Positions 5,873 through 64,000 of a stretch of 64,000 bases of DNA are shown here, one piece after another. Below the pieces are notes generated by a model, which was given only the letters and a program-made list of their open reading frames with translations, was not told where the DNA came from and did no database searches. A program made the position numbers and the translations under genes. This DNA is from Cruorifilaria tuberocauda. Lineage: Eukaryota > Nematoda > Chromadorea > Rhabditida > Onchocercidae. Location: positions 1 to 64,000 of the forward strand of contig JABVXU010000256.1 in NCBI GenBank assembly GCA_013365365.1, given 5' to 3'. Every line of letters starts with the position of its first letter. The first letter of the stretch is position 1.

Positions 5873-7208
5873 TTAATAACTATAATCCTGTTTACTGGTT
5901 AAATGCTTCCGCATTTCCCATAACCTACTTCGACTATCTTGATCACTTAATAACCAAATAAAAGCTATGATTGCACCAATACCCGCGCCAGCCACTGAGG
6001 CGTGTAAACCTCGTGCACATCGAAAGAGCCCTCCAGTAACAGCACCAGCAGCTAAAACAACATAATTAGGAGAATTTGTACTGAGAAGTTAACAATTCCA
6101 TACAAATGTAACAAGGAAAAAATGTTGAAGCTTCACAGTTATGATTATCGTAGACTTCAATCAAATAACAATATAAATTGATAATTGAAATCTTACCAAC
6201 AGCATTAAGGTCATCTTTCGCACGCAGTTTTCCAAAAATCATATTAGCAACAGAGAACATAAAAACAATGGAACCAGCTGGATGAGCAAAACCACTACCA
6301 TGTTTTACTGAGGCATTCATCAAACGCGTCATAAACGGTTTAAAAGGCTAAACAAAAATATGCCAGACTGAAAAACTATGGAAATGTTGAAATTTAATTC
6401 TAGAATATTGATAACTATTACAATTTATTTTTCATACTTTTTTTACAGAAAAAAAAAACCGAAAAGAAAATCATGGCTGCATTTGAAGTGTAATATACCA
6501 CAGAAAATCTGCACGAAAATGAAACCGATCCTCACCAGCTGCCTCGTATTAGGATTCCGCAATTCTGGTAGGATGCCGCGCAGACTACCCAATGTATAAC
6601 CACCTAAAACAGCCCATCCAATCCTTCCCATTGCAAATTCTAGTTCTCCTTTCGATTCACCAGGAATAATATACATGAAAATATGCAATATTATTACATC
6701 CTAAAAGTTCTCTGATGCGAATAAAAACTTTCACATGCTGCTTCCCTCGGCTTTCTAGTCAACAATTCTTTACTTCTAACGCAAGGGACTTGGATTTTGC
6801 CAGACTAAAATAATTCCGAAAAAAGGGACCTTCGAAAAGGTAATTGTCGGCTTTTCCAAACTAGAAGAGCTTACGTTTCCTGGCAAAAAATAATAAACCA
6901 AACCGTATCTAATACTTGGCAACTTACTGGGGTGTAGATTCTCGAAAAACGGCAGGATCCATTTGTAGGTAAGGCGAAAGCTGCTTTTCAAGCGGTACGC
7001 CAGCCTGCTTCAACTGATCTAACGCAAATATCGGAGATCTGTCTAAACTGGTCATACTTATACTATCTTTACCAGAATCCAACGTGCTATTTAAGTCAGA
7101 CAATGATGAATCCATTATTGCTAAATTAGATACTGATGTTGACTGTGTATCTGAATGTGATAAATTAGATGATGATGCTGGGTTTGTCGAATTGAACGGC
7201 CAAACCAT
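5873..7208 (-). CDS. timm-23: Mitochondrial inner membrane translocase subunit TIM23
   Basis: TIM23 forms the channel of the presequence translocase in the inner mitochondrial membrane. Exons: 7208-6928, about 6674-6536, 6347-6197 and 6051-5873; about 249 aa. The N-terminal, Ser-rich intermembrane-space part ends with the family motif AGVPLEKQLSPYLQMDP (human AGVPLTGMNPLSPYLNVDP). Then come the Tim17/22/23 helices: ELEFAMGRIGWAVLGG.TLGS, NASVKHGSGFAHPAGSIVFM, RAKDDLNAVAAGAVTGGLF (human AEDDLNTVAAGTMTGMLY) and the GLHASVAGAGIGAIIAFIW helix, ending KQDYSY. The start lies after a CTTTTATAG acceptor 11 nt upstream. One oddity: the exon 1-2 junction lacks a canonical acceptor (see findings). Identity is secure. 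Confidence 0.95.
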
Positions 7209-9421: not shown

Positions 9422-12400
9422 TTATCTCCGATTACGATTAAAATCAACACGTGATGGATCGTAATATCGAGAGCGACGATCACCATCATAATCTCTGTAA
9501 CGAGTTACACGATTACGATTATCACTAGAATAACGCCTACCACCGTTATTATGAAGCTGTTGTTGCAATCCTCGACTATTACTGCGTTCGCGATCTCGAT
9601 CGCGCCCACGCGGATCTCGAAGACTCCCACGACCAATGTCGTTGCTTCCACGAAATTCTCCAAATGATCGGCGATCTCCACGGCTATCCACAGTGGTACC
9701 ATAATTTTCAACATACTTTCTGGGTTCGTGACGTAAACTACCATTAACTTTTATTGAATCGATAATACTGTTACTGTTGCCACCATTCGTTAACGGCCTT
9801 CTGGAAACTTGAATAGTGGAAGGAGCTATTGTAGCAGAACTAGAACTTGACGGAAGTGACGAGGAAAAAGAACATGGAACCAAGGGATTAGGTAAAGAGA
9901 AGCTGCTACTATTCAGAGGAAAAGAATGAGGTGGTGAACATTCCACAGCACTACATGGAGGTATATTTAAGGAATTGGATGGTGACACAACTACAGGTCT
10001 TGGAGGTGGAATAGTGAAAGAGCAGGGAGAAAATGGAATCGTTACTGGTGATGGAACGGAAGTTGAGGACATTACAGTATAAGATGCCATTGCAATTGGT
10101 ACAAAACTGTTTAGTGACGGCATTCCCTGTGATGGATTCGGTGGCGGTGGTGGCAACATTCCAGGAGATGTGATAGGTTGTGATCCAGTTTGCGGATTAG
10201 TATTCAACGGTGATGGTTGCCTTCCAAGAATAGGGGATCCAGTTATTCTGCTCCCTGTTTTACTCCCATGCAGCTGACTGGAAATAATTGGCGTTTGGAG
10301 AGAATTTGTGGTGCCAGAAATGGATGCAGCATCCACCATAATTCCTGATGGTGATGTAGAAAAATTCGACGACGAATTGTACAGCCATTGTGGAAGATTG
10401 CCATTTAATTGAGACGCTTGTGTATCTTGTATTCGTGATACGCCAGGAAACACCGAGCTAGATGAAGCTTGTGACAACAGAGGGAGAGGAGAACTAGCAA
10501 CTGTAGCAGTAGACTCGGTTGATGATAAGCATCCAAGACCAGAAGGAAACAGCGAATGAGAAGCGAGACGTGGATCGGACACAACTGACGATGGTGTATT
10601 TGTTTTAGATGTCTGAAAACATTACTATTTGAGATCTCATTTATTAACCAATTTTCTGTAATGTTCTGTAGGTAGAAAAGTATAAATGCAATCCATATAA
10701 AGAAAAATGTAAATGTTAAATGTTATGACAGTGCAACGTTGCGATTTATTCACCGACTATTTTCAAATTTTGCAAAGTTGTATTCAAACAGACGCGTATT
10801 TCTATAAGACATACCCATTCTTTTTTACATGTCACACCTATAACAAGAACAGCCTCTTCATGAACAAAGACATTTAGTGGTGTTTATTTAAAACAGCACT
10901 TAAGATAATGCCATCTGATACACATATGGCTGTTATTTATGCTGATAAAACATGTTGGAGAACATGTGCAAAGATTTAATGCTCCAATTGTTCAACTATA
11001 AACGAAATAACAATTGTTATTATGGGAGATCAATCCCAATCAGAGATACTGTTCTTATCGAAATAATCAATTGGCAAAAATCTCAGAAACTCATCTAGGC
11101 TAAGATGATCTCCAATACCTAATCATTTTTTAGGACGGAGATGATGAATATTAGTTCAATTTGAGATGATAAATCCATAGAAACACGAGCGTATTTGAAT
11201 GCAACATTGTATCAAAATTTGAACACAATCGGTGAAAACTTTCGGAGATTTAATATTTTTGGACAAAACGAAATATAACGAACACGTTATAAGTTCTTCA
11301 CCTATTGATTTCAAATTTTATAGACTAACATATGCACTAACTGCAAAACGGACCACGGAGAGTTCATATCATTCGTATACATGATCATACCATTGGTATA
11401 ATTCATGTTTCTAGTCGATGCGGCAGTCATTTTTTGAGTTGATTAATTAAGACACGAGTAAAATAAAAAATACAAACGCAAATAAAGAAGTTACCTCACT
11501 TGCTCGAATTCCTTCTATTATTTTCAACATATGTGTCGAACCTCTGAATGACTGATCCGTTTGGAGTGAATCTAAAATTCTTCTTATCACCGGATATTGA
11601 AAATCTTTTATTAATCAACAATTCCGCCAAAACTTAAAAAGAAAACAACTGAATTAATGGAAGACAATTAATGACAGTACTGAGAAAGCGAACAAAACTT
11701 CAAATTCAAATGCCAAAGAAAAAGTTTGATTAATATTTACCAGGTGTAACAACGAATTCTTCCTTAGCGGCTACTAGCTTTGGTAATGGCAATAGCGAGG
11801 TGGAACCGCATTGTGGTCCCCTCATTTCTACAAATATTTTCATTAGGACATAGATGATACAGGATCAATATAAAAATGAATTAAAATTCAAAATAATAAG
11901 TGAAGTAGAAATCTGAATGCAATTAGAAAATATGAGTTGCACACCTAAATCACAGTAACTAAATTATAAGAACTTACGTTTAAATGCAATTTCGACCCCC
12001 TCCCTGAACGGATCATCATTCGCTGTTGGTGAAGGAGCATCCCGTGGAGGCGATGCACCTGGATAAACACTTGTTTTTAACATTTCTTCCACTTCCGCAC
12101 AAACTTCATCGATCCCAGCACCGAATTTCTGGTAAGCCTAAAAAATTTACAACACTTAATTTCACTCAAAAATTTGCAACAACAGTACAACTTGTGATAA
12201 AACGCATACAATATTATAACTTGAGCACCATAGTATTTCAACTCTTAATATCCTTCCCAATCAAAAATATTTGCAAAAAATGAACTGCGTACATCTTCTA
12301 CAACAGTTACATCTCGTAGCTGCAAAGTGAAGCAACGTTTGGCTCGTTCGATTTCACCTAGAAGATGTTGTCCGCGTTTGCGATGCTTTGCTAATGCTCC

Positions 12401-14572
12401 GAAAAAATCCGTTAGCTTCGTGTAGGACTGTTCAATTTCTCCCATGAATTTCTCACCATCTCGACGATCTGTAAAATACAAAAAACTGGAAAAAAACTCT
12501 ACATTTATTAAAATTTCAAAATAAGTAGCCGCAGCATTTTTATTTACATTTCATTAAAATGCACTTTAACTTGACATTATACATGAAATTTTACAGCTGA
12601 CGAATTAATGCTTGATATTGATGTCATAAACTTCTTGAATAATTGATTGGACGGAAGTAAAAATTGGTAAAGTTATTATATCTTGAAAGTTTAACTTACC
12701 TTTCATTCGACTTTTTATTTTGTCCTTAAAATTGAAGTCGCTCCTGGAAAGTAAATCTCTCGCACGTTCCATGACCAAATTTCCTTTATGATAACCCTCA
12801 ACGTCACGTATTAAATACCCAATATCAAAATCGATTAGTGCATTATCCTCCAATTCATTGCTGTCATCTGAACTGATTGTAAATTTAAACATGCACTGAA
12901 TTCGAATGCAAAAACCAAAAGAATAGATACCCAGGTTTCCACATTAACAATAACTCCCAATCTAAATGTACGAAAAAATGACATAAACTTACTTTGTGCA
13001 GTACGCATATCAGCTAGCTGTGACTTTGAATAAATTTGACGCTCTTCGAATATATCCAGTATTCTACTAACAGCTTTCTGAACATTTTCACTACTCCTAA
13101 AATTTAATATGACTAATATCAGATGAACTTAACGTAGTCTACTACGATTACCAATTCTTGAAACTCTAGTTTCCTTTTAAATACGGCGTAAAAATATACT
13201 TGCATTTACTGTTTCAACTCGAAAAAAGAGAATTAGCAAAATGTACTTAAACATTTCTACAACAGCAAAAAATGAAGTGAAGGAAAAATGAACTTGAAGC
13301 AATACCAAAATCTTTAACTTTCAGTCTGATAATAATAACATCAATAAAAAACACAAAATTGTTTCCCAAACTTTTTCAAGTAGTTTAAGCCATTTAAAAT
13401 TTATTTCAAAGAAAAAGTACCTAGAATACGAAATGGCATTGACCCAGTGTGGTGCAAACGCTTGAAGTAAGACATGTGAGCCGCCCTTTTTCTTCGCTTT
13501 TTGGCAAACATCATTTGCTACGTAGAAAAGAGCAATTTGTAAAGAATCGCCAGCTAAAAGAATATAAATTGCAATGATAATAAGAGCACTGGCGCAACAG
13601 AACATTACGATGCCTTGGAATTAAAACTCGAAGCAAAATGAAGAACAATGCACCTCCGTTTGCGTTTAAATTGCAAAGGATTACAAAAGAAAATAAGACA
13701 TACGACTGCCAATGTAGAATATTCTTCCTATCCTTTATGGAAGTGGACCAGTGTTAATTAAATCCTTCAACACCGTTAAGATTACGTATAATTGAATGAA
13801 CGATAAAAACAAAACGATCAGGTAAAATCAGTCAGCGGAAAAAGTGAAATTATTAAAATTGAATTAAACTCACTGAATCAATCAAGTTAGAGCTTATATT
13901 TTAAACCAAAATGAGGCTAAACATAAGAACTTTTTTTTCTAACACAGCGGTCATCTATAAAGTAAAATTGTGATCACCAAGGAGATTGTAGCCAACAAAA
14001 ACTCCCATTCCAGCAGAAATGTAAAAATAGCTAATCCCAAAATATCAAAAAAAAACAAGTGATTTAATAATATAGCCAAATTTATACTCATAAATTTGCA
14101 GAGGAATATTGTTTGCAGAGGAATATTGGTACCAACGATCGGCTGTAATGTCCAAAAAAGAACCACAGTAAAGAAATTAAATATTCTACTTTATTGGGCA
14201 CAAATAATGAAACACAATTAGACAATAACATTCAGTTTTCATAATAATTTTATACATTAACTTGGACTCTACGAACTGAAATATACTGGAAAGGAACATA
14301 CTTGAAGACCCTTAAACTTTTGTAGCACTCAAATCTTTACATAAAAATTTGTAAGTCTCGTTTTAAGAAGAGCTGATGATTGATTAAATTTTCTTTTTCA
14401 CTATAAATGAACTTGGAATTTTACCCGTTCTGAATACTTCAGTCCAGCAGTTCACAAACTGTGCGGCTAAATCGCGGTGATGTAGTATCCACATAGATGT
14501 TGTCTGAATAGATTCTGAACTCTGATCGACGGCTCTAAGTCGTCGTGCGATCACTTCTTCTGACAGTGCCAT
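9422..14572 (-). CDS. RPRD-type CID-domain protein, RNA polymerase II CTD-binding
   Basis: Nine exons join in perfect phase (14572-14425, 13553-13421, 13096-12993, 12867-12700, 12468-12293, 12137-11978, 11827-11741, 11604-11495, 10612-9422) for 758 aa. Residues 1-130 are a CTD-interacting domain: ESIQTTSMWILHHRDLAAQF, then LQIALFYVANDVCQKAKKKG (human RPRD: LALLYLANDVIQNSRRKG) and ILDIFEERQIYSKSQL. Residues about 185-260 are helical and charged (KFMGEIEQSYTKLTDFFGAL onward), matching the coiled-coil region of RPRD proteins. The single long last exon (397 codons) encodes a disordered Ser/Pro-rich tail ending in Arg/Asp/Gly-rich sequence (RGDRRSFGEFRG, RDPRGRDRDRERS). RPRD proteins bind phosphorylated Pol II CTD and help its dephosphorylation; the nematode relatives are the CIDS proteins. 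An upstream TTTTAG acceptor sits 30 nt before the ATG. Confidence 0.93.
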
Positions 14573-15978
14573 TATCGCTACCTCCGCATATGCTTTGGTT
14601 TCTAAAACTAACAGAATCTATATTTCACTATGACCCAGTTGCTCAAGAACAATTGGGAAGTATCTAATCAGGTAAATCGATTTCAATTTACCTCAAACCA
14701 CCATAGATACTTTTAGAAGAATGAAACAAAGAAAATATTCGAAGGACAGGAAACCTCAATGGTAGCTGGACATTACATTTAGAAATGGCGGACACGCTAT
14801 GAAATGACAAAATCCCGATGCGATCAATTTGGTGTTGTGAGTGTGAGATTCCGGATAATAATGTGGAAGACGTGCGTGGATTCATCCCGGGAAGTACACT
14901 TTCATTAAAGAGAAGTGCAGTCTCATGTAACGAGAACAAGAGAGAATGACTTCCTCTCCTTCTCCTGCTTTGCAATAGGAATTTTAACACGGATAACTTC
15001 CTCCTCTGCCAGTTCAAATCTCAAGCACAACAGTTTCGCATCTTTTTTTCGATCACTGTTTCAATGATTGTCTAAATACAGCTGGTACTATTTTGCAGCA
15101 AGTACCAAAGTAAACGCTGAAAGTTGCGGGACATTTGTCCACATCTATCGCATTTCATCGATTTGCAGTTTTTAATCCCAAAAATTAGTTTACTTCAACG
15201 TCAACTTATGATTCAATATATGCCCGAAAATTACCAGAAATAAATAGTTCAGAAAAAGCTATGATTTATGTGATAAAACATTTAAGTGTATTATGTAAAT
15301 GGATTAAAAGCCAGAGATTAGACTGTACATCGAAAAATAATCATAATATTAAAGTCGTGGAACGTAGAAAAACAAAGTCTTTCTTTTTGTTCAACTGAAC
15401 GAAATTATTTAATTTAATTTCCGTTGTAATGCTTATTCTGTGAAGATGAGATTTTTCGCAAACTCCGATATAACGCACGATGAGATGTACATGTGAACTA
15501 GAATTATGCCTATTTTTACACTTTGATAAGTGTAATATTTTTCTATTAAAAAGATTGTACGATCAGCTAACTCATTGTTTCAAAGATAATACAGGTAAGG
15601 ACTTCCGAGTTAAATTACAGATAAAAGTACATTTTGAATTCATCATCCACGTAAAGATAGAAGTAATCATTTCGGATGTTTGAAAACAGAAATAAAGAAC
15701 TATTATTATTGATGAAGTATAGGTTAGCATATTTACATTATTAATTCGGCACTTGCTAAATAAAGAGTTAGTGTAGTTATCATTCTATCGATGGTATACT
15801 TCACTACCATTTACGACAATTCGTTGGACATAAATTTCCTTGGATGTTCTAATTCCATTCAAACAGAGCTTCATCGATTGAAATTCGCTTTGCAGTGCAA
15901 TGCATATTTCACGATAGCTCTAAAATGTCGAAGCACTTTTACATTTTTTAGATGCAATTTGTCAAAGGGTTGAATGTT
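14573..15978. other. Intergenic between RPRD and repeat-protein genes
   Basis: No supported gene. A 109-codon minus-strand frame at 14688-15017 is Ser/Arg-rich without recognisable domains and lies in the probable promoter of the RPRD gene. The rest is AT-rich with only short frames on both strands. Confidence 0.45.
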
Positions 15979-16279: not shown

Positions 16280-19200
16280 TTATAAGACATTACTAGCTTT
16301 ATTATCGCGTGAAATTTGAAGTTCTCTACCCAGAATTTTCTCCTGCTGACAAAAATCGAATGTATACATAGTGTTTTCTTGGAAATCAGGTCGATAACGA
16401 TGAGATTTTTTTGGCGGGACAACTCTCGTTTGCATACACAAACATCTTCCGCTTGATGAAGTCAGCGAAATTTCAGAAAACAAAGACGGACTTGATGATC
16501 GGATTCGAGCAGCACGCAGATCTAATGAAGCAGATTTTCGGAAGCACTCGACTCGAGAATTTTTTTGTGTTCGTTCTGCCATCAAGCGTGAAGAAGATGC
16601 CAAATATCTGGGAGGTAAAACGTAATTTTGTCGAGAAAATTTCCGAGACAATATTGATTTTAACTCTTTGATCAGCGAACGTTGAGAAGATGTAGTATTA
16701 GAGAAAACCGATATAAACGATGAAACGGTACTTAAGATTGATAAGGTATTTTTTTGGAAACGACTAAAACGTGATATTTTCGACTCCTTTCTAGCCGATA
16801 CTTGAGAGAACAAAGCTTTGGATACAATGGATTTTTCGAATGATTCTGTTGAAATGGTACTTGAACTCGACAGTGTTCTTTTTTGAAAACGCTGAGAGCG
16901 CGAAGTTCTTTGCAATATTGGCTTAGATCGTTTCCATAGGTATTTGTCATAAAATACTACATCAGACAATACTGACGCCACTAATGATCGTGTTTCAGAC
17001 ACAGGTAAATTTGAAGCAAGATTTTTCTCGAAGCGTTCTAAACTGGTAGCTCTACATGATGGTTTAATTGTTAACTTCGGATGTTTCTTTGACGATTCTT
17101 TGGAAGACAAACTTTCAGTCAAAAACATCTTTGATGATTGTAACTGAGTCGTGTGTAAACATGAGAGATTGCTCATACTAGAAACTTCTCGTAGAGGCAT
17201 TAGTTTTGCTTGCTCACAGGATGAACCTCTCTGTGACGAATTTGATAAGATAGCAGGAGATCTTGAAGCACTCGATGGTGATGATTGCGTTGCAAGGAAA
17301 TTCAGTGAAACTTCTCGCTCAAATTGTTCAGAACGAAGATTTCCATGAGAGATATCCACTACTGAATTATCTGGAACTGGGAAACGATCAAGACGTGAAA
17401 TTTTCGGTAATGATTTAGAAATCGTTTGTCGCCAAATCGATCCTCGAAACATTCTTGATTCTGTTAAAATAAATTGATCTGCAGACTGTTCCAACTCTGA
17501 AATACATCGTGATTTCGTATTCTCAATTTCCGATTCCCGAAAACGTTTCAAACGAGAGACTTTCTGAGATGAATTAGAAGAGATCCGCTGCCAAATGTCA
17601 TATCGAGCAGTTTTTGATGCGTAATACCTCGAGTGTCTTAACGGTGCCTCGGTTATCCAAACCTGTGCAGAAACGGCTTCCAAAAATTCTGATTGTGATG
17701 CAAAGCGATCAAAACGTGAAATCTTCCATGGTACACGCAAAAGTTTTCTCTGCCAGCCACGTGGAGTTTTGGCTTGAGCTGTTCGAAGAGTAGATGTTGA
17801 AGTAACAATATCTGCCTGTTGCAAATAATCTCTGCCAAAATCAGGTTGCGAAGTTTCTTCCTGGTATGAATTTTTCGATGATAGTTGCAATTGAGCTTCT
17901 TCCAAATACATCTCAGTCTGCGTATTTTGGATATCTATTGATGATAAATCTGCTGTCTGCTGTTTAGGTTCCTTCGTAAGCTTTCCATTCCGTGATACTT
18001 TATCATATTTTGATGTTATTCTATCCCAATATAGTTGCTTTAGGTAGTTGTGATACAATCCACCGCAATGTGCGGAACAGCGAGCGACTCTGAACAATGG
18101 CTGTGATGGTGGTGTTCGTCGCAAATTTTGATGATTCAATGCATTTGCTATATTGCACTCTGTGGTGAGTAATTCCGACTCAGGAAGTCTATTAACTTTG
18201 CGACACAATTTTGGTAATGATTGCGATATCGCTTGCTGCCGTAAGCGTAATCTCGACTGACTTTTTCTCTTCCTTGATGGCGTAAACAAAGTTGCTGTAT
18301 ATAATCCTTTTGGAATTGAATGTCGTCCGCGAGAAGTCATCAACGGCGATCTTAAGGATGTGCACTGTTTCATTATTTGTTTCATTTTCATAGCAGATGA
18401 AATAGTTGGAGCCATGTATGGCGGCCTTTGCTGAAAGAAAGTATTTGTTTCTACATGCGTGGGTGTCCGAAAATGATAAGATGACGGGTGTTTGACGGAA
18501 CTATTTGCTGTTGATTGCGATATGATACACAGCCCTCGAGATGTTGGGGTACCAAATTTTTTTTCATCTGATCGACCTGCTTCTAAATTCGGCATTGAAA
18601 GGTTAGAACTTTGAACATGATCAGTATCTTTGTTGATCTAAAAAAAATGGAAATTTTAGTATTTCAGAATAAAAAAATCCCAGTTAGATTCAATTAAACG
18701 TTAGAAAACTATCACAGATCCAATAAGTTTCTAAATAAATATAAGTCTCAAAAAATAATTTCCGCTCTACTGTGTAAAAAAATTCCAAAACTTTAATCAC
18801 CATATTTATGAAATCCCAAGATAACGGTTCGCTCAAAACTTAATTAGCTAATATGGTGAATTAAGTCAAAGTAGCTCTGAAATCTAAACTAAATTACCGA
18901 AGAATTGTGAATCGTACCACTTGACTTAATTAAATTTAAATCATCAGATATATGTCCGAGAATTTTCTTATCTGAAATCCTTTTCACAACGTTTATAACC
19001 ATGTAACGAATTGAAATAAATCAATCCAAACATGCTACTTTCACCACATTCGATAAAAAGGAATACGAAAATTGATCTGACAAACAACAACATTCTTTTA
19101 TAGCTTGGCGATTCCATTTTCCAATGTCATTATAATTATCAATACTAATTATTCTTAATGAATTAAGAAATTTGACTTTCAATAAATCAGATTTTATTTT

Positions 19201-22200
19201 TCATTTTTTGACTGCATAGATACCCAACTGTTTAAAAATTCTTTATAATTATTCCATACTAACTTATTGTCTTAGTAGGTGGACGGTGAACGGTGAATGA
19301 AATTGAACTGTATGGTAATTATTTCACTCTATTGTATAACTGTTAATTAGTACACTTATCAATTACAGCAAACAAGACATATTTCTTCAAATCTCCAACT
19401 CTATGAAAATTGGCTGTGGCAAGTGGCGAAATGGATTTGAAACTAAGAAAGCCAAGAAGTACTTGTTTTACTCGTCCGTCTTGCTGCTTCCAAAGTTTTC
19501 GTGCTTATCTCCATCATTTCTCGTTTTAATTCTATAGCAGTTTCTGATGGATTAGTCGGGGACGATTTTTCAATTCTCGGATTGTATTGCTTCTTATGTT
19601 TATAAATGACCATTTCTGCAAATGATTATTTAATTATTAAAGTTTTTTTCCATCTTTGAAGCATAAAGAGTAAGCTCAAAACAGTTATTTCGATACCAGC
19701 CATAGTTGGCCAATATCGAAATAACTGTTCCGAATTTATTCTTTATGCTTTAAAAAAGAAGGCCATTGATTTTTTTTTGGGACAGTTAGAATTGTCAGTA
19801 ACGTTTCTACCGAAGTCTGTTAGATATTTTGAGCTCAATAAAAAGGATAATATAATAATCTCAAAGGATAAAAATATCATTAACCTGCGCTAGGAGTCAA
19901 CATAATTTCACTATTAAATTATTTTTCACTTCTCATTCTCATCGTTTAAAATCGATTCCGTTTTAGCTAAATTTATTACAATTTCATTCTCTTGATTATT
20001 TTAACATCAGTTTCATTTACTTAGGAGTAGAATTTGATTTGCCAAAAGTCATATCAACTAAGAATGAATAAACATTAAATTGTAAAACTGATTTTTTTGT
20101 AAATTTTAATAAGCAAAAACAAGCTTGTTGACCACGCTATATTACGGCGGATTTTACACATTTAAAAAACATCAAGCATACGGATTGATAAGTTATAAAC
20201 AGTTGAGATAAAGTCATGGAAATGATTCAGAAATTGATAATTCAGCAATAAAATTATAAATTGATGCTCAATAAAAGTCGCCACATCCTAAATCATTTTC
20301 ATGCTTTCTTAACCAATCGAATTAAAACTCATTTTAGAAGATAATCATGGAGCTATGCAATTATAATTCTTGACGTTCATTGTTATTGCTCAGCTAATAA
20401 ATTCACTAGTTTCGGAATTTATAGTTAATGATACATTATAATAAAACTTATTTACTTGAATTCTAGAACTTCTTTTGTAAGATTCAGACATTTCAGTTTA
20501 TTTATGAAATGAATTCAAAAATTACAAAATCTTCAACTACTATGCAAAAGTGTAACAATTCTTCATAACTTTAATATTGAATTTTCAATCGATAATCATT
20601 TCATAAAATTAGAGGTACCATTAATAATTATGAAAGAAATACTTACTTTTTCTTACCTCAGCTGACACTGAACATGACAGTGAGTTCTTCTGTTTAGGTG
20701 AGGCTATAATTTTACACTTGAAGTAGTTCGAGATATAAACTTATCAGCTAAATAATACACAGAAATAACTCAATTTGCAAACATCTAATGATTTTCTAGT
20801 ATTCTACTTGTGTCACACAGATTTTGGTGCTATCCTTTTAATATAGCTACAATTATATTTAGGAAGTTCTGCATACGACAAAATGCTGCGGAGAGACGTC
20901 ACTGTCACACATACATTTTATGGGTGCAATGTTTTGATAAAGATGAAACTAGCAATGTCAGGTAAAAATACTTTTTATTGGCAACAAGAGAGAATAGTAG
21001 CGTTATTCTATAATTTCAAGTTAGCTGCAGTAGTTTTCTACTTTTCTAAATTCAAACAATATTACATTAATTAAAGTTATTAAGTTCTAAGTATTGAAAT
21101 AGTTTTTTAATAGATCACTCATATTTTATTATCTAACAATAGCGATCATAGTGCTTATTGTCATAATCATTTTCGTGAAATTGCAAAATGACCAAACCTG
21201 TGTGGAAATTTTTTCGTTTTTGTTGCAAAAATTAATTTAATTTCTATCCTTAATAAATAAATTCAGAATTATAAATTTAAAACAGCAAACTGGAAATGTC
21301 CCCAAACCTTTCCGTGATACCATTGCAATAGTAGCACTAGCTGATCCAGTAATTGATGTTTCCTGATCTTTTACGCACTTAATTGTTTCCATTTTTTTCG
21401 ATTTGTGGATAAATGATGATTCTAACTGAGATCTATTGATTATCAGACAGTCACATTCACCACTTTTAGTATATTTTTCACATTCATTGTACTTCTTGCT
21501 ACATTTGCATTGTATCGACCTCGATCGTATTGAAAAACTATGCTTCTGAGAATGATAAAAACACGAGGTAGAATGCTTGCAAAGAACTGAAGTGTTGGAT
21601 ATCGTTTGATGATGGCTATCTAAATTTTTAACAACAAGCAAGTTAATATTTTTGTGGTTCGAAACACTGCCAGAATCAGAATTTAGGAGGTCACAGTAAG
21701 AGCAGTGCCATTCATGTTCCATTGCATTCATCGAATGTAAGCATTCAACTCTTCCATCAATATACAAAGATCGGATTTCTCGAATTGTTGTGCCACCACA
21801 ATCATTGCAATGAAAAATGCGAAGCTTTTCAGGTTTCCAAGACGCACTTTCCAGGATCAATTCCAAACAATATGGACATTTGCAAGAAAGTTGACTTTCC
21901 AAATGATAAGAACATAAAGAATTGCTTCTTTCATGGTTACCATTATTCATTTTCATATTCCACTGGCTTACTTCATCATCTGAAGCATTAAATGATGTTT
22001 GGTAATCTAGTAATTATTATCTATCTCTACTATATTTTAAAATGAGACTGATTCCACAATGGCTTGAAACAATCTTTTAATTAATTTTTGCCATATCACC
22101 TATCTTCTTCATTTCTTTCATATCATAACGCAGCAAGTTAAACACTACATGAGAGATTTTTTGAATGATTTCCAAACAAGTTTCCGAACAAAAATTCTAC

Positions 22201-23477
22201 TCTAAATTCTTTTTGGGGATTGAAATGTTAATTAAAAATAACCGTCTGCCCAAACATAAACTCAAAAAATAAATAAATTTATGCAATTAGAAGGAATTGA
22301 AAAGACAATCAAGAAACACTCGAGGAGCTGCGCAAAGTTTTTTCTACAAAATGTTTCAAAATGAGTTTTTTAAAGGTTTGCGATAACGTTGTGATAACAG
22401 CCACATACATATCTGGAATTGGTAGGTAGTTATTGCAAAACAGAAGAGTTTTTAAAAAGTCAATATAGAAAATCTTTCTATAAAAGAAGAAATTTCATAT
22501 GATCACTATAAAGTAATGAAGAAAATGTATTTATTAAGATAAAAAGCATAATCCCTAACTTTCTATTAATTGATTTTGGACTCGGGCATGTTCTTCAGTA
22601 CAGAATATGCTCCAAATATTTAACAGAAACTGGAAGAGTTCATCCTTTGCTGCGCAAATTCTATTCCTTAAGTGCTGGAATTGAAACAATAAATAATTAA
22701 GAAGTAATAATACTTTCACATGTTCGATCTGTAGCAGTTGATTGCATTCCAAGAATGGATGTTTTCAGGTTACTGTCTGTACATTGATCCATTTCCATAG
22801 TGGTATTCACGTCCGGAAGATCTGTATTGTCTATTAAAAACATAAGTGTTACACCTAGGTCATTCATCAAATAGCCTCAGATCATGTTTCGGTTTCCAAG
22901 TAAACGATTTAGGAACAAAATCTGTTCTTCCCGTTCTTTCTTATTTCTCGTGACCAAATATTAGGAATTTTGGCACTATTTTTTACATATTTTAATAGTT
23001 TGAAATTTTAGGCAAACTTCATAGTGCTTGTGCAAAGAAAAATTAAAGGTCAAAGTTAGCTGTCATTTTGTTTCTTTCCACCCAAGATATATAAGCAATA
23101 AAAAAACAAGTTATTCCTACTCTCTCGATCAGTTGTATGCTCCTAAGAGACAAAGTGCATATCACCAGCTATCTTTTTAACGTGATGATTTCACATTACG
23201 CTCTTACGCTTAAAACTCTGAAAGATATCATTATTTTAGGCACCATAAATGGCTGACTGTCTGCTGTTATCAATTCTATTTACCTATAGCACCAAATATA
23301 GCAAACACACGACAGTACGCACGTTTTCAAGTCAAATTTCGTTTTCATGCATGCATGTAAGCATGCAAAGACGCGTTTTAGATTCAACTGTAGAATTAAA
23401 AGCCTACATGATCGAGCCGCGTTCATTTCCTCTTTGTTTTCCATGTTATTCTTATCATCGAAACCCTTTATGTCCAT
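16280..23477 (-). CDS. Unrecognised 1117-aa protein: Cys cluster plus SRxxRF repeats
   Basis: Six exons join in phase: 23477-23408, 22830-22714, 22649-22560, 21979-21308, 20703-20657 and 18637-16280. The ATG follows a TTTTAG acceptor by 12 nt. Residues about 65-92 are a short amphipathic helix. Residues about 108-170 hold paired cysteines (CKCPYC, FHCNDC, WHCSYC) suggesting a zinc-binding fold; more Cys follow (CKCSKKYNEC). The large last exon is basic and Ser-rich, and repeats a KISRFDRF-like core about every 50 residues (KVSRLKRF, KISRLDRF, RTSRSQRF, KISRFSRF), often after W-Q/K-R. I recognise no family. Exon 3 is the least certain: if its donor were not used it would end in a stop. An alternative splice from CTGG/GTAGAG (about 16333) to an exon at 16172-15979 is also in phase and would give a different C-terminus. 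A scaffold or spindle/chromatin role is guesswork. Confidence 0.7.
19443..19613 (-). CDS. Small ORF of 56 aa inside a 2-kb intron
   Basis: Lies in intron 5 of the repeat-protein gene on the same strand. The ATG is two bases after a TTTGCAG acceptor, the arrangement seen at true gene starts in this window. The product is highly charged, with a helical segment ETAIELKREMMEISTKTLEA. It is not in the phase needed to be an exon of the host gene. There is a faint resemblance to the first SNARE helix of SNAP-25-like proteins, but no continuation exon was found, so function is not assigned. It may be a nested small gene or chance. Confidence 0.25.
   Translation of the reverse strand: MVIYKHKKQYNPRIEKSSPTNPSETAIELKREMMEISTKTLEAARRTSKTSTSWLS
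19661..19748. repeat. 88-bp palindrome (MITE-like) in intron
   Basis: Two arms are perfectly symmetric about 19704.5. GCATAAAGA at 19661-19669 pairs with TCTTTATGC at 19740-19748, and ACAGTTATTTCGATA at 19681-19695 pairs with TATCGAAATAACTGT at 19714-19728; the short stretches between are partly complementary. The loop is about 18 nt. It sits in the 2-kb intron of the repeat-protein gene. Confidence 0.85.
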
Positions 23478-51437: not shown

Positions 51438-55904
<4,467 letters not shown>

Positions 55905-62600: not shown

Positions 62601-64000
62601 AACCACTCGTATTCCATGGGTTTCTATAGACAAAACAGGTTAGCTTAATCTTTTTTTTTGTTCTATTTCTTTTTCCATATGTTTCGCTAAAATTTATTGC
62701 AGAAGTACGTCTGAATGTCTTTCTTTTAGTGCAAGCTTTTTGGGAAATATCAATTTTTTGTTCGAAATTGCGATGCTAATTTCATAAAATTAATTTTATA
62801 TCAATTTCTCCAAAAAAAAACCAAAAACATAGTAAATAGTGCAAGATGATAAGCCTTTAAGATGAGGTTTATTAAAGATATCACTTATTAATCTTCGAAA
62901 AGGCGCAAAAAGGTTGGAATAAATTGTAAAAGAGGAAATTAATTCAGCATACTAGCAACATGTCGAACGAGATCAGCTTTCCATTTGCTTGTCCGAGAGC
63001 AGTATTTGCAACGAAATGGACGTTCGTTAGTATGCACGCGCTTATGTCTGATCATTTCCGAAACCCACTTTCCCTGGTAACCACAAATGGAACAGGTCCT
63101 TGTTGACACGTCTGGATCTATTTCAATACGCTGTAAAAGTCAATGGAGGTGTATTTAATTAGAAAAAAGTAGAATAAATTTCATCCCTGATTGATCTATC
63201 TATATCATACAAAACTGTTGCGGCAAACAAGAAATTTTCATTTCCTGATCATCGTTTGGAGCTTCGATTGCCTCAGCTTCAGTCAAATAGCGCTTATGGA
63301 GACTGTCGTTAGCACCAATATCATCAGCACGTTTAGCGACTAAACCATCCAAAGTATTCGCCGGATTCGTTACACCTCCTCGACGGCATTTTCGAATTCG
63401 ATGATGATAACTTGGCATTTCGGTCATCTGAAATTCACATTCATCTCCCTTCGAAAAAATCGAACGAAGTTCAAATAAGAATATCCTAATTTTTATTAAA
63501 ACCTATATCTAAATTAAGAGAAAAAAAATCTTCATTTAAGGAAAATTTTCATTCTACGAAGATGGGATTAAAATTTCAAATTTAAATTTACTACTCCCGC
63601 GAACCGTAACTTACCATGTTAAAAGATTCAGAAGTAGTTGGTGATGAGGTGAATTTGTCGAAATGTTTTTGATGATATTCCGTATTCTGTAAAAATTTTT
63701 TATAAAGCGCCAGTATATGTATAAAAATAATAGGGTTATTTCTCAGTGATGTTTTAAACATTGGAATTACTTTTCATCCAATTTAATTCCCATATGAACT
63801 CATTATTTGAACTTATTCCGTGGAAATTTCAGTTATTTTCACCTTCATTGTGATTTTCATAAATTTTAGTTTCCAAAAATTTGAGTTTAGTTAGGCATAA
63901 ATTCGAACTAATTAGTTGCAAGCCACTCAAGCAATTGTTAAAAATTTAAAAGTTCTTTAGCGAGTAAAGAAACATAGGATGTTCTTACAGAAAATGGTCC
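59617..64000 (-). CDS. C2H2 zinc-finger transcription factor (5' end outside window)
   Basis: Exons, right to left: 64000-63989 (partial), 63686-63615, 63427 to about 63200, 63130 or 63111-62953, 62623-62526, 62329-62222, 62140-61951, 61816-61643, 61353-61175, 61066-60989 and 60183-59617. Five fingers are visible: CSICGYQGKWVSEMIRHKRVH; CKYC...H then VAKTH completed across an intron; CVIC...HLKNAH, also split by an intron; a C2HC finger CHSCGSSFMDAHTTVKH with a Cys seven residues later; and CIFCNWTTKKMCSMEEHLRTH. The C-terminal 190 residues are acidic and Ser/Asn-rich, ending EEDDFVDVVQLG, as in an activation or cofactor-binding tail. The junction between the third and fourth exons does not settle in phase with the nearest acceptor. 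A nuclear DNA-binding role is expected; the specific factor is not recognised. Confidence 0.83.

Follow-up and report, generated by a model that had tools for sequence, protein, structure and literature searches.

A probably disordered filarioid protein with a repeated W-x(11)-S-R-x-x-R-F motif, a candidate multivalent docking scaffold

What kind of protein is encoded by a gene whose long exon repeats a short core of the type SRxxRF, and what might such repeats bind? The gene in question lies on the minus strand of a 64,000-nucleotide stretch of Cruorifilaria tuberocauda DNA (contig JABVXU010000256.1, positions 1 to 64,000), referred to here, at its full length, as the window. The motif looks new and the protein family is an orphan one; the product is a fast-changing, probably mostly unfolded filarioid protein in which this motif is repeated.

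Seven cores had been reported in an earlier reading of the DNA alone (the original prediction). All of them were found in exon 7 (table 1), on the minus strand and a few bases from the places first given, and one of them, KNSRVECF, is worn. The open reading frame (ORF) of this exon continues to a stop at 16280 (18637-16280, 785 codons). The pattern [KR]x[ST][RS]xxRF, which was composed after the sequence had been seen, matches the ORF six times, whereas 20,000 shuffles of the same composition averaged 0.031 matches and gave at most 2. The regular spacing of about 50 codons that had been proposed was not found: with RATSLERF omitted and the degenerate unit counted, the gaps from copy to copy are 92, 54, 53, 165, 43 and 72 residues.

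Two protein searches returned nine relatives, all of them gene predictions. The first listed the window's own protein and seven relatives (31-60% identity to the window across the matched part) among 7987 scored candidates, and the second added two more (7992 scored). Six have an assigned species, C. johnstoni (P0002), E. elaphi (P0003), W. bancrofti (P0005, A0AAF5RWS2), S. digitata (P0008), B. pahangi (P0009, QQG55_24155) and B. timori (P0010), and all six are filarioid worms; by taxonomy Setaria belongs to the Setariidae and Cercopithifilaria johnstoni to the Onchocercidae, both within the Filarioidea. The remaining three are P0004, P0007 and P0006, the last being 97% identical to P0009 and so Brugia-like. 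Conserved stretches of the long exon are shared by the relatives, the repeats are shared where the predictions reach them, and several also share a Cys region or a C-terminal segment described below. They differ in that P0005, P0006 and P0009 have no units after the third and P0010 is a fragment ending ahead of the units; since P0005 and P0006 break off at different points, the missing units may reflect annotation rather than true loss.

No relative with an assigned species beyond the filarioids was listed in the two protein searches, which needed shared five-residue words and similar length and which listed no Onchocerca, Loa or Dirofilaria records either. When the Cys region of P0010 was searched by itself, there were 12 candidates and nothing beyond the query was listed. 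That the protein fits no known family, as had been suggested, was borne out by Pfam, which gave no match above cut-off for two window ORFs, for four relatives (P0002, P0005, P0006 and P0008), or for the C-terminal segment and the Cys region. Within the part of the literature that was accessible, there was no match to four of the relatives' accession names or to four spellings of the motif. One copy of the long exon was found in a genome search (71.7 Mb, 1108 contigs), and the Cys region gave one further match (expectation value (E) 0.12, 28% identity, with a stop) that was judged to be chance; these copy counts are lower bounds.

The relatives allowed the units to be scored independently of the window. 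A matrix was made from 36 units of P0002, P0003, P0004, P0007 and P0008, the window being excluded; P0005, P0006, P0009 and P0010 did not contribute, as few or none of the units are present in their predictions. On this matrix six window units scored from 15.6 to 40.8 (table 1), against a top score of 13.8 in 1000 shuffles. Because the relatives are probable orthologs, the test reflects not just repetition but also the fact that the same places have been conserved. Thus, by pattern count and by matrix, the units did better than shuffled sequence, the comparison on which the original prediction had staked the repeats. Where the window has its worn KNSRVECF, P0002, P0003, P0004 and P0008 have W followed by SRx[EK]RF. 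Exon 7 of the window is about 180 residues shorter at its 3' end (near 16290) than in P0002, P0003 and P0004, where these residues hold at least one further unit. A second motif, L-x-T-A and like forms, was also observed in the long exon, with four to eight copies in P0002, P0003, P0004, P0007 and P0008 (reached by 0 to 11 of 2000 shuffles) and two in the window (reached by 163 of 2000).

In the relatives the core forms part of a longer unit, W-x(11)-S-R-x-x-R-F, with Lys/Arg at position -2 from the Ser (position 0). Among the 36 units, W stands exactly at -12 in 20, Arg at -10 in 17, Lys/Arg at -2 in 34 and Asp/Glu at +3 in 26. Ser/Thr occupies position 0 in 35 (Ser alone in 33; S, T or C was required by the search) and Arg occupies +4 in 34 (R, H or C required); Arg at +1 and Phe at +5 are present in all 36, both having been demanded by the search. 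Trp lies 11-12 residues upstream of the Ser in four of seven window units and in 29 of 43 units over six sequences, and the aromatic step noted earlier ahead of several cores is genuine, at a near-fixed distance from the Ser. Only at the cores is Lys/Arg at -2 in excess: it was seen for 40 of 42 core Ser/Thr/Cys residues, compared with 183 of 1147 Ser/Thr elsewhere and 12 of 68 [ST]R elsewhere. Likeness between the flanks of different units was reached, upstream and downstream respectively, by 0 and 0 of 300 random sets in P0004 and by 1 and 0 in P0003, and was less clear in P0002 (0 and 8) and P0007 (16 and 2). Since these flanks look alike, the array may have arisen by duplication and become worn since.

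Conservation was measured across seven aligned sequences, P0006 having been dropped because it is nearly the same as P0005. Mean pairwise identity was 0.83 for the S-R..R-F columns, 0.65 for the eight-residue cores and 0.49 for the remaining exon, and the core value was reached by one of 770 circular shifts. In the printed alignment columns KISRFDRF was the best-kept core and RATSLERF was poorly kept, the other five being intermediate. Six core-matching units are kept in Setaria, the most divergent relative found (31% identity). This pattern fits the suggestion that the units could be docking peptides.

The repeat region has a net charge of +64 over 781 residues, falls into the disordered class by charge and hydropathy, and includes RKRK, a possible nuclear signal. 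AlphaFold gave it no confident fold (mean pLDDT 30.6), which fits disorder but, with nine aligned rows, proves little. A multivalent docking platform for a cyclin, kinase, phosphatase or 14-3-3-like partner had been proposed, and repetition and the conservation pattern fit such a platform, but the cyclin, phosphatase and 14-3-3 partners did not fit by consensus when ELM-type ligand patterns were scored on the 43 units. The cyclin-docking RxL ([RK]xL) occurred in one unit, and the PP1 ligands RVxF and SILK and the PP2A-B56 ligand in none. For calcineurin, PxIxIT was found in none and LxVP in four, which by eye represent one unit position (RF.VP) in four sequences; for 14-3-3, mode 1 RSxSxP was found in none and a loose form in one. 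The EB1 ligand pattern was present in 0 to 4 units and the LC3-interacting region (LIR) in two. A kinase may still be involved: a general basophilic site, [KR]-x-[ST]-not P, lies at the unit Ser in 41 of 43 units (as a consensus match only), but the strict PKA form [RK][RK]x[ST] was found in four units and the MAPK DEF motif in none.

The N-terminal Cys cluster, described earlier as CPYC, CNDC and CSYC pairs, was compared in four sequences. The latter two pairs are kept in all four, both Cys of HCNDC and both of W-x-C-x-x-C being invariant, but CPYC keeps only its first Cys, the second being replaced in relatives (CPNS, CPNF, CPPF); more invariant Cys are found farther along exon 3. From these columns the region is probably one zinc ribbon, with 31 residues separating the pairs. 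It is like the RanBP2 or Sec23/24 zinc ribbons in having W-x-C-x-x-C, an Asn four residues later and two C-x-x-C pairs, and unlike them in the 31 residues between the pairs; a Sec23/24 match was not listed, most matches above about E 0.1 having been dropped. RanBP2 fingers have the order W-x-C-x(2-4)-C-x3-N-x6-C-x2-C. Here the first half is present, but the second C-x-x-C lies upstream, not downstream, and a RanBP2-type finger was rejected. Pfam matches of the Cys region to zinc-ribbon models were scattered and below cut-off (for example RanBP type in two of four members, best E 0.0082; IS1595 type in two of four, best E 0.0037). PARP- and Sec23/24-like identities were considered and dropped, as no such Pfam match was listed, and matches to KDM6/UTY histone demethylases (structure matches E 0.24-0.53; Pfam KDM6_GATAL E 1.4) were not used. 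Against solved structures, the Cys exon alone gave no match up to E 10, and a Cys profile matched 24 distinct sequences (best E 0.16), over half of them antibody chains and none credible. Since the Pfam matches are below cut-off and the structure model is poor, the ribbon is read from Cys spacing and conservation, and zinc binding is a prediction.

The explanation favoured here, tentatively and with somewhat less than even confidence, is that the protein, of which one copy was found in this genome, may be a multivalent scaffold: a basic, disordered chain whose repeated peptides would serve for docking and might be switched by a basophilic kinase. It is preferred because of the core-specific Lys/Arg at -2, the fit to a basophilic site, the charge and the predicted disorder. 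A Ser-rich, presumably disordered chain of about 780 residues would lie between a predicted zinc ribbon at the N-terminus and a small conserved segment at the C-terminus, and would show six to nine copies, by species, of the two-part peptide W-x(11)-[ST]-R-x-x-R-F with Lys/Arg at -2. All copies would recognise the same folded partner, one molecule per copy, through an extended groove with a pocket for W and a pocket for R-x-x-R-F at a fixed separation, so that the protein could gather or space several partner molecules. Phosphorylation of the near-invariant Ser of [KR]-x-S-R by a basophilic Ser/Thr kinase could switch the docking.

KNL1, with its MELT repeats, is a multivalent motif scaffold. 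The present protein is like it in having a short repeated motif, modifiable Ser/Thr, a long chain predicted to be disordered and fast-evolving spacers, and unlike it in the motif itself and in having no Pfam match to KNL1 domains. It is possible, but rather unlikely, that the 18-residue W-x(11)-S-R-x-x-R-F is the ligand of an undescribed peptide-recognition domain, and that the protein and its partner form a new multivalent assembly system switched by phosphorylation of the central Ser. If the motif does mark a new ligand-receptor pair, the partner would define a process special to filarioid worms. The gene is conserved in a group that includes human parasites, and its motif fits none of the partner consensuses tried; what it offers at present is an improved gene model, a defined motif and a small set of testable residues.

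Several observations weigh against the docking scaffold. Trp is absent from three of the seven window units, the number of units differs between relatives, the end of exon 7 that P0002, P0003 and P0004 have is missing from the window, and the likeness between unit flanks is moderate in the window (reached by 12 and 7 of 300 random sets) and weak in Setaria P0008 (34 and 22). The Cys exon was modelled poorly (mean pLDDT 32.2 from five rows; 26 of 223 residues at 50-70, none higher). Moreover, self-association would also be compatible with Arg/aromatic-rich repeats. Self-association is the basis of a sticker-and-spacer condensate, in which clusters of W, Arg and Phe would bind each other, and perhaps RNA, between Ser-rich spacers, with no dedicated partner domain. 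Arg-aromatic clusters spaced along a basic chain that is predicted to be disordered are what this would need; however, the order of W-x(11)-S-R-x-x-R-F, the near-fixed distance within it, the Ser at position 0 and the Lys/Arg at -2 exceed the needs of stickers. A groove is favoured over loose sticker chemistry because the distance from W to SRxxRF is nearly fixed, and the condensate is considered a possible but lesser explanation.

More doubtful is a binder of nucleic acid, nucleosomes or filaments, whose basic units would touch an acidic surface (DNA, RNA, an acidic patch or tubulin), with the ribbon adding specificity. The charge of the repeat region, the possible nuclear signal and the below-cut-off RanBP and IS1595 matches are compatible with such a role, but the acidic residue at +3 and the frequent tryptophan point to a protein groove, and no known nucleic-acid-binding domain was over the Pfam cut-off.

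The gene model was built from splice phase and homology to relatives. In place of the six exons and 1117 residues first proposed, nine phase-compatible exons with eight GT-AG introns are predicted (23477-15785, minus strand), giving 1240 codons, one stop and a different C-terminus (table 1). The exon 1 peptide KRKVMDIKGFDDKNNMENKEEMNAARS (including four residues before the ATG) shows 52% identity with both P0005 and P0006 (E about 0.001), and exon 2 had no counterpart in the match search against relatives. In exon 4, SPKQKNSLSCSVSAE corresponds to SPKRKNLLSCSISTE of P0006 (73% over 15 residues, E only 0.14). The stretch 19008-18895, around exon 6, is 65% identical to P0002, 61% to P0005 and 45% to P0006. 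P0005, P0006 and P0009 extend into a C-terminal segment whose last residues are ...QRIIVNGSKVYH(H)K, and exons 8 and 9 of the window encode the same segment, with the stop at the same place; because the relatives continue in this way, the earlier-noted stop at 16280 is probably intronic. P0008 has only the first half of the segment, its match to exon 8 extending into the following intron, P0002, P0003, P0004 and P0007 do not include it, and the P0010 fragment breaks off before that point, so the putative C-terminal extension draws on four of nine relatives. A PLAT-like identity for this segment was considered and dropped, as no such Pfam match was listed. Neither the C-terminal profile (four matches, best E 1.3) nor the unit profile (one match, E 1.1) gave a credible match among solved structures.

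It had been recognised at the outset that the Cys exon and the repeat exon might belong to different transcripts. Such an artefact would agree with the predictions of P0002, P0003, P0004, P0007 and P0009, which begin downstream of the Cys region, and with the open frames of shorter exon chains, 2-3-4(short)-7 and 2-3-5-7 (other acceptor). On the other hand, the Cys region and the long exon are joined in one chain in the other four of the nine predictions, P0005, P0006 and P0008 (with units) and P0010 (fragment, exon start only), which by name or similarity represent three genera (Wuchereria, Brugia and Setaria); the introns are all GT-AG and phase-compatible, and the intervening exons 5 and 6 match relatives. 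An artefact is very unlikely. The nine-exon chain is preferred because of these matches of exons 5 and 6, and alternative splicing is possible. Least credible is a secreted precursor from which furin-like cleavage at R-x-x-R would free Phe-starting peptides, since R-x-x-R, which overlaps 40 of 43 cores, belongs to the motif definition and is not independent support, the stricter R-x-[KR]-R occurs in 7 of 43 only, and P0005 and P0006 start with MSS(I/F)KK, where a signal peptide is not obvious by eye.

Table 1. Exons, repeat units and conserved segments of the gene, in window coordinates.
Feature	Position	Strand	Remarks
Exon 1, from the earlier-noted ATG (true start may be farther upstream)	23408..23477	-	donor CAT/GTAGG, phase 1
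Exon 2, weakest exon	22714..22830	-	open frame, GT-AG, phase fits on both sides
Exon 3, Cys-rich	21308..21979	-	48% identity to P0005 and P0006, 36% to Setaria P0008
Cys core WKPEK ... HCNDCGG ... EWHCSYC, C-x2-C-x31-C-x2-C, predicted zinc ribbon	21693..21839	-	invariant columns, four sequences
Exon 4	20647..20703	-	donor AAAAA/GTAAGT; weak match to P0006
Exon 5	19463..19615	-	37% to P0005, 40% to P0006
Exon 6	18898..18971	-	inside matched stretch 19008-18895, which contains acceptor TTTCAG
Exon 7, Ser/Arg-rich, carries repeats	16294..18637	-	relatives' matches and splice phase
PYMAPTISSAMKMK / PYMAPTISSAMK, top eight-residue window of exon 7	18380..18421	-	mean pairwise identity up to 0.96
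Degenerate unit YWDRITSKYDKVSR, fuller in P0002 and P0008	17990..18031	-	matrix score 8.4, shuffles not beaten
Unit GWQRKLLRVPWKISRFDRF, core KISRFDRF 17702-17725	17702..17758	-	matrix score 40.0
Unit IWQRISSNSSQKVSRLKRF, core KVSRLKRF 17540-17563	17540..17596	-	matrix score 32.3
Unit IWRQTISKSLPKISRLDRF, core KISRLDRF 17381-17404	17381..17437	-	matrix score 40.8
Weak unit RATSLERF, without W, position poorly conserved	17030..17053	-	matrix score 7.5, shuffles not beaten
Unit LWKRSKPILQRTSRSQRF, W at -11, core RTSRSQRF 16886-16909	16886..16939	-	matrix score 22.2
Unit core KISRFSRF, window copy without W	16757..16780	-	matrix score 18.4
Worn unit core KNSRVECF	16541..16564	-	matrix score 15.6
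Exon 8, first half of conserved C-terminal segment	16072..16172	-	P0005 66% over 29 residues, P0006 44% over 34; phase fits
Exon 9, second half of C-terminal segment and stop	15785..15919	-	73% to P0006 over 44 residues

The intron between exons 4 and 5 contains an inverted repeat (19655-19754) with 48-nucleotide arms that are 81% complementary and separated by 4 nucleotides. It belongs to no evident mobile-element family, as the genome search returned 19655-19754 alone.

Farther downstream, also on the minus strand, the next gene-like stretch encodes a CID domain (13370-13560; Pfam CID E 9.2e-6, above cut-off), with neighbouring ORFs from about 14570 to 9422. A peptide at about 14570-14400 resembles the start of RPRD/CIDS proteins. 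The ORF at 9425-10621 is long, Ser/Pro-rich and then Arg-rich, with no Pfam match, and may be the tail of the CID gene. Elsewhere in the window, on the minus strand, there are a possible Tim17/22/23-type exon at 5876-6088 (E 0.0019, below cut-off), a RING-like Cys exon at 51441-51629 (Pfam zf-C3HC4_3, E 0.00059, below cut-off) and a C2H2 zinc-finger exon at 62942-63139 (Pfam zf-H2C2_5, E 1.5e-11, above cut-off).

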